DNA from: Caballeronia humi
GTDB lineage: Bacteria > Pseudomonadota > Gammaproteobacteria > Burkholderiales > Burkholderiaceae
Length of the DNA stretch: 64,000 nucleotides
Direction: 5' to 3'
NCBI RefSeq assembly: GCF_001544475.1
Contig: NZ_FCNW02000013.1
Coordinates: forward strand, 62,001-126,000
Shown in pieces: positions 21,169 to 28,317 of the stretch (its first letter is position 1; each line of letters opens with the position of its first letter). Made by a program: the position numbers and the translations under genes. The notes under the pieces were generated by a model. The model was not told the origin of the DNA. It was given only the letters and a program-made list of their open reading frames with translations, and did no database searches.

Positions 21169-21591
21169 TTATGAATGGTCGTCGGGGTCCATGTCTATAT
21201 TGAGCGGCATCGATACGTGTTCGTGCACCACGCGCCATTCGCCGTCGATCCTGCGAAAACACGCGGTGCCGCGCGTCAGATTGTCCTGCTCGCCGACGAC
21301 CACGCGGTTCACGCTATGCGCGAAGGCGACGTCGCCGCTCGCGGCCACTTTCACGTCGGGCATTTCGAACGAGAACGGTCCTTTCATCGAATCGAACCAG
21401 CCCTGCCAGTGCTCGCGATAGCGCTCCGTTCCGGTGAAGGACGCAGGCGGCACGATATCGAACACGACGACATCGCTTGCATAGTGTCGCATCAGCAAGT
21501 TCACGTCTTTCGCGACGACTGCCTGCCGCCATTCCTCGATGATTTCGCGGATGCGCGCTTCGTCGCTCTCTGGTGCATTTGACTTGGTCAT
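21169..21591 (-). CDS. SnoaL/ketosteroid isomerase-like protein
   Basis: A 140-residue NTF2-fold protein (IREIIEEWRQAVVAKDVNLLMRHYASDVVVFD, then RYREHWQGWFDSM and RVVHEHVSMP). The start MTKSNAPES is preceded by GGAGG. The long inverted-repeat element begins only 12 bp upstream, so any promoter must lie inside or beyond that element. The frame is also open into the repeat, but that part would encode only repeat sequence. The enzymatic role is unknown. Confidence 0.85.
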   Translation of the reverse strand: MTKSNAPESDEARIREIIEEWRQAVVAKDVNLLMRHYASDVVVFDIVPPASFTGTERYREHWQGWFDSMKGPFSFEMPDVKVAASGDVAFAHSVNRVVVGEQDNLTRGTACFRRIDGEWRVVHEHVSMPLNIDMDPDDHS

Positions 21592-21603
21592 GATTGGACC
21601 TCC

Positions 21604-22381
21604 GGGTTTCGCTGGCGCTTGGGGGTGGCGGTGGGGTGGGGGTTGGGGGTTCAACACCGTTTGATGCACCAGGGCTTCAATGGACTTTCGTTCTTATCGG
21701 TCTATTAGCTCTGCCCCTGTCCGGGGCGGGACTTACTTTCTTTGCTGCTGCAAAGAAAGTAAGCAAAGAAAGCAGCTTCCACCCGCCTATCCTTGCCTCA
21801 TACCTCCAGACCACTCCCTCGGAGTGGTCCGACCGGGGGAGTGTCGTCAGCGCGGTTTCGTCGTTGTTGGCACGAAGAAGCGGGCGCGCATCTCGCACAG
21901 CGACAGGGAGTGGATCAGCAATCATTCATCCGGCCTCGCGCAAAGCGCTCACCCGAGAGGCGAGACTCAAACCAATGGCGTGCTTGCGCTTGCCAACCGC
22001 GCATCGAAGCCCCGCCACTAGCATACCTGTCGTCGGGCACGTAGTGCCAGGACGGATGAATGACTGCTGTTCCACTCTGAGTGGCTTCGCGACGTGCGCG
22101 CCCGCTTCTTCGTGCCAACAACGACAAAACCGCGCTGACGACACTCCCCCGGTCGGACCACTCCGAGCGAGTGGTCTGGAGGTATGGGGCAAGGACTGGC
22201 GGGTGGAAGCTGCTTTCTTTGCTTACTTTCTTTGCAGCAGCAAAGAAAGTGAGTCCCGCCCCGGACAGGGGCAGAGCTAATAGACCGATAAGAACGAAAG
22301 TCCATTGAAGCCCTGGTGCATCAAACGGTGTTGAACCCCCAACCCCCACCCCACCGCCACCCCCAAGCGCCAGCGAAACCC
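21604..22381. repeat. 778-bp palindromic element with two 333-bp inverted arms
   Basis: The left arm (21604-21936) and the right arm (22049-22381) are reverse complements. I counted about 17 mismatches in 333 aligned positions by eye and no gaps, with differences concentrated toward the centre. The central 112 bp (21937-22048) is not repeated. Each arm carries nested hairpins. Reading frames on both strands are near-copies of one another because of the symmetry and are not credible genes. It behaves like an insertion: it abuts one gene and replaces the end of another. No transposase and no clear target-site duplication were found. Confidence 0.93.
21732..21763. repeat. Perfect hairpin inside the left arm
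   Basis: CTTACTTTCTTTGC pairs perfectly over 14 bp with its complement around the loop TGCT. The right-arm copy at 22222-22253 has the same hairpin with one mismatch. It may act as a transcription terminator or as a recognition structure for mobility. Confidence 0.88.
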
Positions 22382-23763
22382 AACCCGAGGTGGCGCGCCG
22401 TCGAATCAATCGCGGTCTTCGCCTTCTCCATGATCTCGTCGATTTCCGTATGCGATATGACGAGCGGCGGTGAGAGCAGCATACGGTCGCCGGTTGCGCG
22501 CATCACGAGGTTGCCGTTGAAGCAGAAGTCGCGGCACAGCGTCCCGATCTCGCCGCCGTTCGCGAAACGCTTCCTCGTGCGCGGCTCTTCGGCAAGCTGG
22601 ATGCCCGCGACCAGCCCGGCACCGCTGATTTCGCCGACGATCGGATGCGCCCCGAACGTCTCGCGCAAACGCTTTTGAAAATACGGTCCGGTGTCGCGCT
22701 TCACGCGTTCGATGATCCCTTCGTCGCGCAGCAGCGTGAGATTCGCGACCGCCACCGCCGCCGCGACCGGATGCCCCGAATACGTGAGTCCGTGATTGAA
22801 CTCGCCGTTCTCGATGATCACCCGCGCCACACGATCATGCAGGCCCACCGCGCCCATCGGCACGTAGCCGCTCGTGAGCCCCTTCGCTAGCGTAATGAGG
22901 TCCGGTTCGAAGCCGAAGTGCTGATGCGCGAACCATTCGCCGGTGCGCCCGAATCCTCCGATGACTTCGTCGGCGGCGAGCAGCACGTCGTACTTGCGGC
23001 AGATGCGTTGTATCTCCGGCCAGTACGTGCGCGGCGGAAAGATTACGCCGCCCGCGCCCTGGAACGGCTCGCCGACGAACGCCGCCACGTTCTCCGCACC
23101 CGCTTCGAGGATCGTCGCTTCAAGCTGACGTGCGCGCGCGAGACCGAACTCGTCCGGCGTCATATCGCCGCCTTCGCCGAACCAGTACGGCTGATCGATA
23201 TGGACGATGTTCGGCACCGGCGACGGCATCTGCTCGTGCATGTAGTCCATGCCGCCAAGCGTGCCGCCCGCGATCGTCGAACCGTGATAGCCGTTCCTGC
23301 GCGAGATCACGATTTTCTTCTGCGGCTGGCCGAGCGCGGCCCAGTAGCGATGCACGATACGCAGCATCGTATCGTTGCCTTCGGAACCGCTGTTGCAATA
23401 AAAGAAGTGATTGAACGGCGCGGGCGTGAGTTCGGCGAGCAGCGCCGATAGTTCGATGACAGGCGGGTGTGTGGTCTTGAAGAACGTGTTGTAGAAGGGC
23501 AGTTCCTGCATCTGACGATACGCGGCATCGGCCAGTTCGCGGCGGCCGTAGCCCACGTTTACGCACCATAGCCCCGCCATGCCGTCGATCATGCGGTTGC
23601 CGTCCGAGTCCCACAGATACACGCCCTCGGCCCTCACGATCACGCGACTGCCCGCGCGATTGAGCGCGCCCATATCGGAGAACGGATGGATGTGATGCGC
23701 GGCATCGAGCGCGCGGTATTCGGCGGTGGTGCGTGCCGGCTTCAGAGCGATTCTGTCGTTCAT
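22321..23763 (-). CDS. spuC: Putrescine-type class III aminotransferase (SpuC-like), C-terminus altered by repeat
   Basis: A 480-residue PLP enzyme close to Pseudomonas SpuC as recalled, which transfers the amino group of putrescine to pyruvate. Conserved segments include GMAGLWCVNVGYGR, NSGSEGNDTMLR, NGYHGST, the PLP aspartate in LLAADEVIGGFGRTGEW and the PLP lysine K294 (LAKGLTSGY). Homologues of about 456 residues end near the TARHLG position. Here the last 19 residues, Gly/Trp-rich, are encoded by the inverted-repeat arm, which also supplies the stop. It is the distal gene of the puuD-puuA-spuC operon, 17 bp after puuA. Confidence 0.92.
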   Translation of the reverse strand: MNDRIALKPARTTAEYRALDAAHHIHPFSDMGALNRAGSRVIVRAEGVYLWDSDGNRMIDGMAGLWCVNVGYGRRELADAAYRQMQELPFYNTFFKTTHPPVIELSALLAELTPAPFNHFFYCNSGSEGNDTMLRIVHRYWAALGQPQKKIVISRRNGYHGSTIAGGTLGGMDYMHEQMPSPVPNIVHIDQPYWFGEGGDMTPDEFGLARARQLEATILEAGAENVAAFVGEPFQGAGGVIFPPRTYWPEIQRICRKYDVLLAADEVIGGFGRTGEWFAHQHFGFEPDLITLAKGLTSGYVPMGAVGLHDRVARVIIENGEFNHGLTYSGHPVAAAVAVANLTLLRDEGIIERVKRDTGPYFQKRLRETFGAHPIVGEISGAGLVAGIQLAEEPRTRKRFANGGEIGTLCRDFCFNGNLVMRATGDRMLLSPPLVISHTEIDEIMEKAKTAIDSTARHLGLGFAGAWGWRWGGGWGFNTV

Positions 23764-23780
23764 GTTGGTCCCCTGGTGCC

Positions 23781-25115
23781 TTAGACGTGCAATAGCAAAT
23801 GCTTGCGTTCCCACGAACTGATCACGCGAAAGAACGCTTCGAACTCGGTTTCCTTCAGCGCGAGATACGCGCGCACGAACTTCTCGCCGAGCATCTCTGC
23901 AAGCGGCTCGCACGCGCCCATCAAAGTGAGCCCTTCTTCCAGATTGCGCGGCAACTGATACGCGAGCGCGTAGCCGTCGCTCGCGAGCGGTTCTGTCGGT
24001 TCGAGATGCTGCGTCATGCCGAGATAGCCCGCCGCAAGCGTCGCCGCAATCGCGAGGTACGGATTGCAGTCGACGCCCGGAATGCGGTTCTCGATACGCC
24101 GCGCGGCTGGCGCCGAATGCGGAATGCGAAAGCCGACGGTGCGGTTGTCGTAGCCCCATTGCACGTTGATCGGCGCAGCCATGAAGCGCGACAGCCGCCG
24201 ATACGAATTGATGTACGGCGCGAAGATTGGCATCAGCGCGGGTGTGTATTTCTGCAGCCCCGCGATATAGCCGTGAAAGAGCGCCGTTGCTTCGCCGTCG
24301 CGGCCGGTGAAGAGATTGCGCCCGCTCTCGGCATCGACGAGGCTCTGGTGCACGTGCATCGCCGAGCCCGGTTCGTTTTCCATTGGCTTCGCCATGAACG
24401 TCGCGTACATCTTGTGGCGCAGCGCCGCCTCGCGCACCGTGCGCTTGAAGAGAAACACGCGGTCGGCGAGATTGAGCGGATCGCCATGCAGGAAGTTGAT
24501 CTCCATCTGCGCCGCGCCCACTTCGTGGATCAGCGTATCGACTTCGAGTTCCTGCACGTCGCAATACTCGTAGATGTCTTCGAACAACGGATCGAACTCG
24601 TTGACGGCTTCGATCGAATACGCTTGACGTCCCGTTTCGGGCCGCCCCGTTCTGCCGATCGGCGGCTGCAGCGGCAGGTCCGGGTCCTTGTTCATGTCGA
24701 CGAGAAAGAACTCCAGTTCGGGCGCGACGACCGGCTTCCAGCCCTTCGCTGCGTACTTCTCCAGAACCTGGCGCAGCACGCGGCGCGGCGAGATCGCGAC
24801 GGGCGTGCCGTCGAAGTGCACGCAGTCGTGAATCACCTGCGCGGTCGGATCGACGGCCCACGGGATCAGGCGAATCGTCGATGGATCGGGCACGCAGACC
24901 ATGTCGGGATCGGTGACGCCGGTGAAGCTGCCGTCGGCGGGATAGTCGCCGGTGACGGTCTGGATCATCACGGCTTGCGGCAGCCGCATCGACTCGCCCG
25001 ATTCGAACTTGCTGCGCGGAATGATCTTGCCGCGCGCAGTGCCGGCCATGTCGGGGATGATCGCCTCGATCTCGGTGATTCGATGCTTCTTCAGAAACTC
25101 GTCGATGTGTTGCAT
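23781..25115 (-). CDS. puuA: Gamma-glutamylputrescine synthetase
   Basis: A 444-residue glutamine-synthetase-family ligase. In the Puu pathway it joins glutamate to putrescine with ATP. The C-terminal catalytic domain shows ELEFFLVD (metal Glu), the VGAAQMEINF strand, GSAMHVHQSLVD and the arginine loop NRTVGFRIPHS. The N-terminal beta-grasp domain (IPDMAGTARGKIIP) is shorter than in true GlnA and there is no adenylylation-loop tyrosine motif. Its position directly behind puuD and before a putrescine aminotransferase supports polyamine catabolism rather than ammonia assimilation. Confidence 0.92.
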   Translation of the reverse strand: MQHIDEFLKKHRITEIEAIIPDMAGTARGKIIPRSKFESGESMRLPQAVMIQTVTGDYPADGSFTGVTDPDMVCVPDPSTIRLIPWAVDPTAQVIHDCVHFDGTPVAISPRRVLRQVLEKYAAKGWKPVVAPELEFFLVDMNKDPDLPLQPPIGRTGRPETGRQAYSIEAVNEFDPLFEDIYEYCDVQELEVDTLIHEVGAAQMEINFLHGDPLNLADRVFLFKRTVREAALRHKMYATFMAKPMENEPGSAMHVHQSLVDAESGRNLFTGRDGEATALFHGYIAGLQKYTPALMPIFAPYINSYRRLSRFMAAPINVQWGYDNRTVGFRIPHSAPAARRIENRIPGVDCNPYLAIAATLAAGYLGMTQHLEPTEPLASDGYALAYQLPRNLEEGLTLMGACEPLAEMLGEKFVRAYLALKETEFEAFFRVISSWERKHLLLHV

Positions 25116-25119
25116 GGCT

Positions 25120-25857
25120 TCATCCTTGGGTTGAAGTGGTGCGACATGCGTCGCCGAAGGCGCGGAAGATGGCGCGCGAGAGCGGGTCGTCAGCGTGTTT
25201 CCATTCGGGGTGCCATTGCAGCGCGAGCGCGAAGCTCTTCGCGTGCTTGACGCTGATCGCTTCGATGACGCCGTCGGGCGCGACGGCCTCGACTTCGAGA
25301 CCGTCGCCCAGGCGGTCGATGCCTTGCGCGTGCAGCGAATTCACGCGTGCTTCGCGCAGGCCGCTCAAACGGTGCAGCATGCCGCCCGCGCTGATTTCGA
25401 CCGGATGCGACGGGCCGTATTGCACGTCGAGCGGATCGTCCTTGCGCTCGCGATGCGCTTCATGAACATCCTGATTCAGCGTGCCGCCGAACACGACGTT
25501 CATCTCCTGAAAGCCCCGGCAAATCGCTAGGACAGGCACGCCGCGCTCGATTGCTGCGCGCATCAGCGGCAGCGTGGTGGAATCGCGTGCGGGATCATGC
25601 GACGTGCCAGGAGCGCTCGCAGCAGCGCCATAACGATGCGGCTCGACGTTCGAATGGCTGCCGGTGAAGAGCAGGCCATCGACGGCCGCGAGCACATCGT
25701 CCACAGGTTGCTTTTCGCCGAGCGCGGGCAGCACGAAGGCGAGTGCCTTCGCGCCGTCGACGATCGCCGTGATGTACTTTTCTCCCGCGACGTGCGAGGG
25801 ATGGGCGCCGATCATCGTTCGATCGGCGCTGATGCCGATGACAGGTAGTGTTCTCAT
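25120..25857 (-). CDS. puuD: Gamma-glutamyl-GABA hydrolase (class I amidotransferase-like)
   Basis: A 245-residue peptidase C26 enzyme with the catalytic triad visible: Cys113 (VLAICRGFQEMN), His216 and Glu218 (LQWHPEWK). In the Puu route it releases GABA and glutamate from gamma-glutamyl-GABA. It is the first gene of a three-gene operon, 4 bp before puuA. The oxidase (puuB) and aldehyde dehydrogenase (puuC) needed in between are not in this window. Confidence 0.92.
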   Translation of the reverse strand: MRTLPVIGISADRTMIGAHPSHVAGEKYITAIVDGAKALAFVLPALGEKQPVDDVLAAVDGLLFTGSHSNVEPHRYGAAASAPGTSHDPARDSTTLPLMRAAIERGVPVLAICRGFQEMNVVFGGTLNQDVHEAHRERKDDPLDVQYGPSHPVEISAGGMLHRLSGLREARVNSLHAQGIDRLGDGLEVEAVAPDGVIEAISVKHAKSFALALQWHPEWKHADDPLSRAIFRAFGDACRTTSTQG

Positions 25858-26439: not shown

Positions 26440-28317
26440 ATGCTTTCCAACCTGGCCATACAACTCGTCAACGGACTCGCCGATGCCTGCGCGCTCTTTC
26501 TCGTCGCGTCGGGCCTCTCGCTGATCTTCGGCGTGACCCGCATCGTCAACTTCGCGCATGGCTCGTTCTACATGCTCGGCATGTATGTCGCGTGCAGCCT
26601 CGCGAACCGCTTCGGCGCGACCGTGGGCGGCTTCTGGCTTTCGGTGGTGGCGGCAGCGTTGATGATCGCGGTGCTCGGTGCGTTGGTCGAGATGGTTGTC
26701 CTGCGGCGGATCTATCAGGCGCCCGAGTTGTTCCATCTGCTCGCGACGTTCGCGCTCGTGCTGATCTTGCGCGACGCCGCGCTCTATATCTGGGGGCCGC
26801 AGGATCTCTTCGGGCCGCGTGCGCCTCATCTCGCGGGCGCCGTTGAATTGCTCGGCCATCAACTGCCCGCGTACAACGTCGTGCTGAACGTCATCGGTCC
26901 GCTCGTGCTCGGGGCGCTCTGGTATGCGCTCACGCGCACGCGCTGGGGCACGCTCGTGCGGGCGGCGACGAGCGACCGCGAGATGCTCGGCGCGCTCGGC
27001 ATCAATCAGGCGTGGCTCTTCACCAGCGTGTTCTTCGCGGGCGCGTTTCTCGCGGGGCTGGGCGGCGCGTTGCAGGTGCCGCGCATGTCGGCGAATCCCT
27101 CGCTCGATCTCGATACGATCGGTAACGCGTTTGTGGTCGTCGTGGTCGGCGGGATGGGGTCGATTCCGGGCGCGTTCGTTGCGGCGCTGCTGATCGCGGA
27201 GATCAAGGCTTTGCTGATCGGCATTGGACATGTGTCGGTGTTCGGCATCGACTTTTCGCTGAGCAAGTTTACGCTCGTCGCGGAGTTCGTCGTGATGGCG
27301 ATCGTGCTCGTCGTGCGGCCGTGGGGCCTTTTCGGACGCGCGCAAACCGCCGTGCGTGCGATGGGCGCCGCTGAAACGCCGTTGCGTCCGGCAAGCAAGC
27401 GCCTGAAGCGGGGCGCTGCGATCGTCGTGCTGCTGCTCGCGCTCGCGCCGCTTCTGGCCGGACAGTTTCCGTATCTGCCCGTACTGCTCGTCGAGATCAT
27501 GATCGCCGTGCTGTTCGCCACGAGCCTGCACTTCATCATGGGGCCGGGCGGCATGCATTCGTTCGGGCATGCGGCGTATTTCGGGCTCGGCGCATACGGC
27601 GCGGCGCTCTTCCTCAAAGTGTTCTCGTGGCCGATGGAGCTCGCGCTTGTGTTCGGCCCGCTGCTCGCCGCGCTCGGTGCAATCGTGTTCGGCTGGTTCT
27701 GCGTGCGGCTCTCGGGCGTCTATCTCGCGATGCTCACGCTCGCGTTCGCGCAGATCGTGTGGTCGGTCGTGTTCCAGTGGGACGCGGTGACGGGCGGCAG
27801 CAATGGCATCCTCGGTCTGTGGCCTTCGCCCTGGCTGAGTTCGTCCATCGCGTATTACTATGTGACGTTGATCTTCGTCGTGGCCGGCGTATGGTTACTG
27901 CGACGCATGCTCTTCACGCCGCTCGGCCACGCGATGCGCGCCTCGCGCGATTCGCCACTGCGTGCCGAGGCCATCGGCATCGACGTGCAGCGCATCCAGT
28001 GGACCGCGTTCGTGATCGCGTCGATTTTCTGCGGCCTCGCGGGTTCGCTCTATGCATTCTCGAAGGGCAACATCTCGCCGGACGTGATCAGCGTCGGGCG
28101 CTCCGTCGACGGCCTCGTGATGGTGCTGCTGGGTGGCGTGCAGACGCTTGCCGGGCCGATCGTCGGCGCAGCGGTGTTCACGTGGCTCGAAGACACGGTC
28201 GCGCGTCAGACCGACTACTGGCAGGCGCTCCTCGGCGCCGCGATCCTGCTGCTCGTGATCGCGTTCCCGCAGGGCATCGTCGGCTTCGTGCGCGAACGAT
28301 TCGCGGAGGCCGAGTGA
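26440..28317 (+). CDS. Fused LivH-LivM branched-chain-type ABC permease
   Basis: A 625-residue protein carrying both permease subunits of a branched-chain amino-acid-type importer. Residues 1-290 are LivH-like (SGLSLIFGVTRIVNFAHGSFYMLG, then VVVVGGMGSIPGAF). From about 330 it is LivM-like (GPGGMHSFGHAAYFGLGAYGAALF, the EAA-type region AEAIGIDVQRIQW, then LLGGVQTLAGPIVGA). The junction near residues 300-325 is a short basic linker. It overlaps the next ATPase gene by one base. The substrate is unknown; adjacent polyamine genes suggest an amino-acid or amide nitrogen source. Confidence 0.93.
   Translation: MLSNLAIQLVNGLADACALFLVASGLSLIFGVTRIVNFAHGSFYMLGMYVACSLANRFGATVGGFWLSVVAAALMIAVLGALVEMVVLRRIYQAPELFHLLATFALVLILRDAALYIWGPQDLFGPRAPHLAGAVELLGHQLPAYNVVLNVIGPLVLGALWYALTRTRWGTLVRAATSDREMLGALGINQAWLFTSVFFAGAFLAGLGGALQVPRMSANPSLDLDTIGNAFVVVVVGGMGSIPGAFVAALLIAEIKALLIGIGHVSVFGIDFSLSKFTLVAEFVVMAIVLVVRPWGLFGRAQTAVRAMGAAETPLRPASKRLKRGAAIVVLLLALAPLLAGQFPYLPVLLVEIMIAVLFATSLHFIMGPGGMHSFGHAAYFGLGAYGAALFLKVFSWPMELALVFGPLLAALGAIVFGWFCVRLSGVYLAMLTLAFAQIVWSVVFQWDAVTGGSNGILGLWPSPWLSSSIAYYYVTLIFVVAGVWLLRRMLFTPLGHAMRASRDSPLRAEAIGIDVQRIQWTAFVIASIFCGLAGSLYAFSKGNISPDVISVGRSVDGLVMVLLGGVQTLAGPIVGAAVFTWLEDTVARQTDYWQALLGAAILLLVIAFPQGIVGFVRERFAEAE

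Follow-up and report, generated by a model that had tools for sequence, protein, structure and literature searches.

The analysed window, a 64,000-nucleotide stretch of Caballeronia humi DNA, contains a very long palindrome, which raises the questions of what such an element is, how it came to lie where it does and what keeps its two arms alike. An inverted-repeat search placed its exact bounds at positions 21604-22381, giving a 778-base inverted repeat. The left arm (21604..21948, + strand) and the right arm (22037..22381, + strand; located by the inverted-repeat search and arm comparison) are each 345 bp long, ungapped and 94% complementary, with 22 mismatches, and enclose a non-palindromic centre of 88 bp (21949..22036) that matches at 8 of 44 positions. 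A first-pass annotation had reported equal, ungapped arms of about 95% complementarity, which is borne out closely, together with an arm length of 333 bp and a centre of 112 bp, which are not. Its observation that divergence grows toward the centre is confirmed: counted per 50 bp from the outside inward, the arm mismatches number 0, 0, 1, 3, 1, 6 and 11, none of the 22 falling in the outer 130 bp, where the arms are identical, and 17 falling in the inner 95 bp. The best inverted match of the window scored 994 bits, whereas three equally long first-order Markov sequences reached at most 43.7 bits. Folded as RNA, the palindrome reached -737.5 kcal/mol, compared with -301.4 +/- 8.0 in 20 shuffles. 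Given the 88-bp centre, the palindrome would more likely form a long hairpin, as single-stranded DNA or as RNA, than a cruciform. Rfam 15 at the gathering score returned 0 matches across the 64-kb window, a tRNA search returned none matching the palindrome, and no Pfam or NCBIfam family matched it above the cut-off (one NCBIfam match had E=0.28).

The palindrome extends from the last codons of an aminotransferase gene to the ribosome-binding site of a SnoaL-like gene. The frame of the class III aminotransferase (22321..23763, - strand) enters the right arm and stops 19 codons on at a TGA inside it, so that its last 19 codons (GFAGAWGWRWGGGWGFNTV) and stop lie within the end of the right arm, as judged by eye in a comparison with the sister species; the palindrome therefore supplies the stop codon of this gene. 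On the other side, a GGAGG-like ribosome-binding site (by eye) of the gene for a 140-aa SnoaL-like protein (21169..21591, - strand) adjoins the left arm. In C. terrestris, the sister species, the flanks match those of the window at 93% and 95% identity, and the 762 bp between them hold a TetR-family gene (Pfam TetR_N and TetR_C_33), which is absent from the corresponding interval here (21600..22386). Six more relatives' loci (L069, L070, L071, L081, L084 and L087), chosen since both neighbour genes fell inside the fetched stretch, have a TetR-like gene in the interval, as judged by position and by eye, the one in L087 apparently with in-frame stops. The element was seen at the orthologous site in none of the 25 relatives' loci fetched, most of these stretches being without the aminotransferase. 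By this alignment of flanks, the window element replaces the 762-bp TetR block and was not simply added, and on parsimony the block was probably lost in the window lineage after its split from C. terrestris. Comparison of orthologous sites, which the first-pass annotation had proposed, thus yielded sites without the element, with no target duplication seen and with exact ends that could not be placed to the base.

Several features of the neighborhood deserve mention in their own right. On the - strand of the window (22321-25857), a glutamine-synthetase-like gene and a peptidase C26 gene precede the aminotransferase, forming a set that presumably resembles a polyamine (puu-like) catabolic operon. 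In relatives, the TetR gene missing from the window stands next to this puu-like gene set. Further along (26440-28317) lies a 625-aa ORF that appears to be a fusion of two permeases, two stretches of it matching the branched-chain amino acid permease family.

Sequence searches showed the window palindrome to be one divergent member of a palindromic repeat family that is dispersed in Burkholderiaceae, in Caballeronia and related soil bacteria. The unit of this family consists of two inverted double-hairpin cores of 82-90 nt, mostly 390-540 bp apart, and the arms that join them are complementary to one another, yet their sequence differs between lineages. Each family core comprises a 14-bp stem, TTTCTTTG motifs and a G+C hairpin; a CTTTCTTTG-like motif is present in two direct copies and one inverted copy beside the G+C hairpin. 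In the window, the left core (21689..21778, - strand) and the right core (22207..22296, + strand), 98.9% identical, both read outward, and the right core is the portion of the element that was found across the genus and family. The small hairpin of the left core (21732..21763) has a 14-bp stem and a 4-nt loop and pairs at all 14 positions, while that of the right core (22222..22253) has 13 of 14 Watson-Crick pairs and one T-G; the nested 14-bp stem noted at first reading does recur in both arms. The G+C hairpins are GCCCC-TGTCC-GGGGC on the left (21713..21727) and GCCCC-GGACA-GGGGC on the right (22258..22272), the latter folding on both strands of the right core. The common end motif of the elements, as read by eye, is CGCTGGCGCTTGGGG.

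Among the loci examined, 64 non-identical inverted pairs were found (orthologous copies being entered separately), 60 of which have 390-540 bp between the cores; a further 102 core matches lie outside the counted pairs, many of them cut by the locus end or belonging to duplicate loci or partial tandem units. Compared with its own genome, the element gave at least 128 matches (from the 40 candidates scored out of 74, with every arm entered once per strand), and a count by hand gave at least about 44 other arm places and at least about 15 partial outer units or fragments. When 20 of these places were fetched, nine proved to be inverted pairs (one cut by a contig end, one split by an insertion), and the other 11 comprised nine that reach a contig end, one lone arm (L035) and one short palindrome (L037). 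The core or arm was present in 54 of 58 Caballeronia genomes (at most 14 candidates scored per genome) and the core in 40 of 120 family genomes, covering 8 of 25 genera (at most seven scored per genome), the matches per genome being lower bounds in both surveys. An exact 38-base pattern occurred in at least 81 stretches, the 80 listed lying in C. terrestris, C. arationis and C. telluris, which do not bound its range. The same inverted pairs appear among the matches listed for assemblies of 3-7 contigs (G047, G049, G016, G039 and G034); these five genomes have 26-55 core matches each among those listed, and some other genera have fewer. Many contigs of draft genomes break off within an element of this kind. 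The expectation of a dispersed element without a transposase, missing from relatives' orthologous site, is supported by the family copies and by the TetR gene that the relatives hold. The suggestion of two elements inserted head to head is not supported, as family members ordinarily come as inverted pairs, in few-contig assemblies too. The search for single-arm and full copies in this genome and its relatives yielded many full pairs and few lone or half copies (L035, L171 and L131).

Half elements, with one arm and no other side, were observed at L171 4514-4601 and L131 4005-4092 (C. arationis and C. terrestris, respectively), and the outer part of one arm forms tandem arrays with a spacing of about 95-134 bp at L029, L033, L049 and L151. 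The inner part of the window copy matched only stretches of 23-86 bp in 8 other genomes among 58 (at most 11 candidates scored in each), the best match among those scored being a centre motif in G011, and it had no match in a plasmid collection. A phage origin was rejected, the core having no match in 50,697 phage records. A coding role was also rejected: the frames listed that follow a ATGACTGC-like motif vary in length from 6 to 82 aa, different copies do not share their short frames, and Pfam and NCBIfam gave no match above the cut-off. We found no description of this repeat family in the open-licence papers searched.

Filled sites for which a relative lacks the element numbered eight, namely the window and L019, L122, L099, L043, L044, L162 and L057, the last of which holds a single core only. 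At the seven sites outside the window, the relative has a gap of 33-265 bp at that place. Gene loss was seen only at the window site, and L099 and L162 show trimming of a gene's 3' end. No target duplication was seen by eye at any of the eight, where element ends vary and a short duplication could escape. At one site filled by an element in this genome, the empty counterpart in C. arationis holds two convergent stop codons with what, by eye, is a terminator-like hairpin between them. Frames run into an element and stop there in the window and, by eye, at L099 and L162. Several element sites are common to related species.

The position of the elements relative to genes was then counted with a crude GC3-based gene caller. 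Among 156 flank clusters, the gene faces the element in 88 and faces away in 58, with 10 uncalled or tied (p=0.016). The 53 unique full sites that remain when orthologues are subtracted from 97 full elements are convergent in 12 cases, tandem in 29, divergent in three and uncalled in nine. For 53 facing genes, the distance from the stop codon to the core edge, counted without a distance control, is within 95 nt in 29, 96-150 nt in seven and larger in 17. Genes thus tend, modestly, to end at elements. Loose terminator-like matches (G+C stem plus U tract) numbered three, compared with 1.4 +/- 1.4 in shuffles, and are not above chance; the tails after the G+C stems (ACTTACTTTC, TCTTTGCTTA and TTCTTTGCTT) are T-rich and not canonical U tracts.

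Since facing genes outnumber those facing away, stops cluster near cores and frames stop inside elements, we lean towards reading the family as a portable gene-3'-end element that spreads non-autonomously. A transcript entering from either flank would form a long hairpin that would terminate the RNA or protect its 3' end. Copies would survive where they abut stop codons, and could stand in for terminators. The likeness of the arms would come mainly from copying of one arm onto the other, through template switching or gene conversion, and copies would spread non-autonomously via an enzyme that recognizes the core hairpins or via exchange between copies. This proposal is weakened by the terminator-like sites, which are not above chance, and by the modest orientation bias.

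The alternative that fares best, less probable in our judgement than the gene-end element but a serious competitor, is that the family is purely selfish REPIN- or MITE-like DNA, whose core hairpins would be transposase recognition sites and whose location at gene ends would result only from the purging of harmful insertions. Its dispersal, the lack of a recognized protein family, the inverted-pair unit, the tandem outer units, the relatives' sites without the element and the absence of the TetR gene at the window site all agree with this. The only match to the Y1 transposase (PF01797) in this genome, at G000:C19:37544-37834, argues against it, as this single Y1-type gene has no core within 1.5 kb; linkage to a RAYT gene was accordingly rejected for this genome. 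Also against it, units of 600-800 bp exceed REPINs, no target duplication was seen, and convergent sites outnumber divergent ones by 12 to 3 among the 44 called. Movement also appears slow, because several sites are common to related species. An autonomous version was sought in two of the three pairs with wider centres (L063, L065 and L066), and no ATG-started frame of more than 108 aa was present in the two that were read, L065 and L066. A 382-aa transposase-like ORF, which we take to be IS481-like, is inserted at a core hairpin of another copy in this genome (L023 1603-2751, contig C12), splitting its right arm.

How the gene-end element might keep its arms alike was examined by comparing arms within and between copies. 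Inner arms (the 100 nt next to the hairpin, some core bases included) are 0.70-0.95 alike within 15 elements and mostly 0.56-0.73 between lineages, one of 16 representatives having given no pair and been dropped; among related representatives they are 0.80-0.92 alike, shuffles averaging 0.58 and reaching at most 0.66. Palindromy therefore outlives arm sequence, with some residual similarity between lineages. Arm mismatches in the 64 elements, with orientation not normalised, comprise 438 G-T, 411 A-C and 1054 others; when the better strand was picked afterwards for each element, G-T rose to 531 against 318 A-C, an upper bound biased by that choice. RNA-duplex selection along the whole arm was rejected as the main force, there being no excess of G-T over A-C, and arm-to-arm copying is therefore favored over it. 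Rapid homogenisation of arms in all members was rejected as well: typical Caballeronia copies have arms about 75% alike (median 0.754), and changes between sister species in three orthologous pairs are mostly one-armed (37, 64 and 52, versus 5, 4 and 6 concerted), so that typical members do not copy one arm onto the other rapidly. The nearest sequence is the arm's own partner in 4 of 128 arms, other copies being closer otherwise. The three sister-species element pairs are 0.90-0.92 identical and their matched flanks 95-98% (one pair matched on one side only), a lower identity in elements that would fit exchange between copies.

The window copy stands at the end of this range. Its outermost arms score 1.00/1.00, compared with medians of 0.73/0.57 in the 58 of 64 elements with arms long enough and 0.67/0.57 in random arm pairs. 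The next-highest value is that of L019 (0.89/0.91), in a G-rich simple stretch, and given L019 the window copy is an extreme and not a class of its own. Because its outermost arms are identical while those elsewhere are near random, a recent arm-to-arm copy in the window element is indicated. It is rather unlikely, though conceivable, that the window copy was instead made in situ, by a template switch at a replication fork that copied one arm inverted and rejoined downstream, deleting TetR. The complete identity of the outermost arms where others are mostly at the random level, the 762 bp missing at the same place and the half elements in C. arationis and C. terrestris are in line with such an event; the 17 of 22 mismatches in the inner 95 bp and the two-core unit as the rule in the family speak against it. 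Bringing arms and gene ends together, the family may be a class of very long palindromes that persist as palindromes and not as sequences: their arms would be rewritten from lineage to lineage and recopied from one arm to the other, the double-hairpin core with its covarying stem ends would be retained, and the units would act as portable stop-plus-terminator caps that settle at gene 3' ends and can displace whole neighbor genes, such as TetR. We offer this picture tentatively and, taken as a whole, hold it less likely than not.

Conservation of the core bears on a further alternative, namely that the core is a DNA-level site bound by a nucleoid, gyrase-like or recombination protein, the long arms following from inverted duplication. 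The first TTTCTTTG copy, which lies outside the selection pattern, is nearly invariant across 24 aligned cores while arm sequence is not conserved, as such a site would predict; the remaining two motif copies belonged to that pattern, so that their invariance proves nothing. For the covariation test, 24 of 37 pattern-picked cores were used, and as the pattern fixes ten bases per stem side, 10 of the 14 stem pairs are invariant by sequence choice and four are free to vary. Three of these four change on both sides. Such both-sided changes fill 15 cells, a number reached in 0 of 500 shuffles, and the covariation score of 0.183 exceeds all shuffles (mean 0.084), the signal vanishing when the partner is slid. 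Two other measures did not rise above shuffles: how many pairs carry both-sided changes (249 of 500 shuffles) and how many further pair types occur (377 of 500). Covariation at the stem ends of the small core hairpin is supported by these data, and the both-sided changes therefore favor a hairpin over a linear site, leaving the protein-binding site improbable.

That the palindrome is an assembly artefact is highly improbable: the genome is a draft of 272 contigs and many contig ends lie within family elements, but the same architecture occurs in few-contig assemblies, the inner arms are distinctive with 22 mismatches between the arms, and the flanking genes neighbor one block in relatives, so that the palindrome appears to be a genuine dispersed element and not an error of sequencing.

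If the reading of the family as a gene-end element is true, a common component of Caballeronia and related genomes, one that coincides with draft contig ends, would gain an anatomy, and roles of the family at transcript ends and in the loss of genes could be put to the test. The family would also offer a natural system for studying how long bacterial palindromes persist and how their arms stay alike.

Several known systems invite comparison. MITEs and foldback elements are non-autonomous inverted repeats without a transposase, and the window element is like them in having terminal inverted repeats and no recognized coding content in Pfam or NCBIfam. It differs in that it replaces a gene, its palindrome reaches nearly to the centre and no target duplication was seen by eye at ends that could not be placed to the base. 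Bidirectional intrinsic terminators likewise place hairpins between gene ends, and one element occupies the place at which a relative carries a hairpin that, by eye, resembles a terminator; however, the element tails are T-rich rather than canonical U tracts, and terminator-like sites do not exceed chance.

REP, REPIN and BIME sequences, which bear GTAG or CGTC tags, are described in PMC3733652 and PMC3116915 as dispersed intergenic palindromes, often in dimers or clusters; many lie downstream of coding regions, and their stems have alternative residues that are complementary. The family shares with REP/REPIN the inverted dimer as its usual arrangement, seen in the 64 non-identical pairs. It differs in scale, with a two-hairpin core of 82-90 nt and a unit of 600-800 bp in place of a 20-40 nt unit, most of the measured copies having arms of some 240-350 bp, not 20-40 bp. 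RAYT genes flanked by long terminal inverted repeats are noted in PMC3733652; the Y1 gene of this genome is not flanked by the family core, and no long terminal inverted repeats resembling this core surround it. Neither Burkholderia nor Ralstonia is mentioned in the main text of PMC3733652 or that of PMC2267715. The latter cites palindromic repeats of Yersiniae as determinants of mRNA stability. The YPAL and ERIC repeats described there are intergenic stem-loop repeats, as is the family, and compared by description only they are shorter, about 70-170 bp. Although it lacks the short REP/REPIN unit and, in this genome, a RAYT gene flanked by the repeat, the palindromic family of Burkholderiaceae resembles both REP/REPIN and YPAL-like repeats in its behavior.
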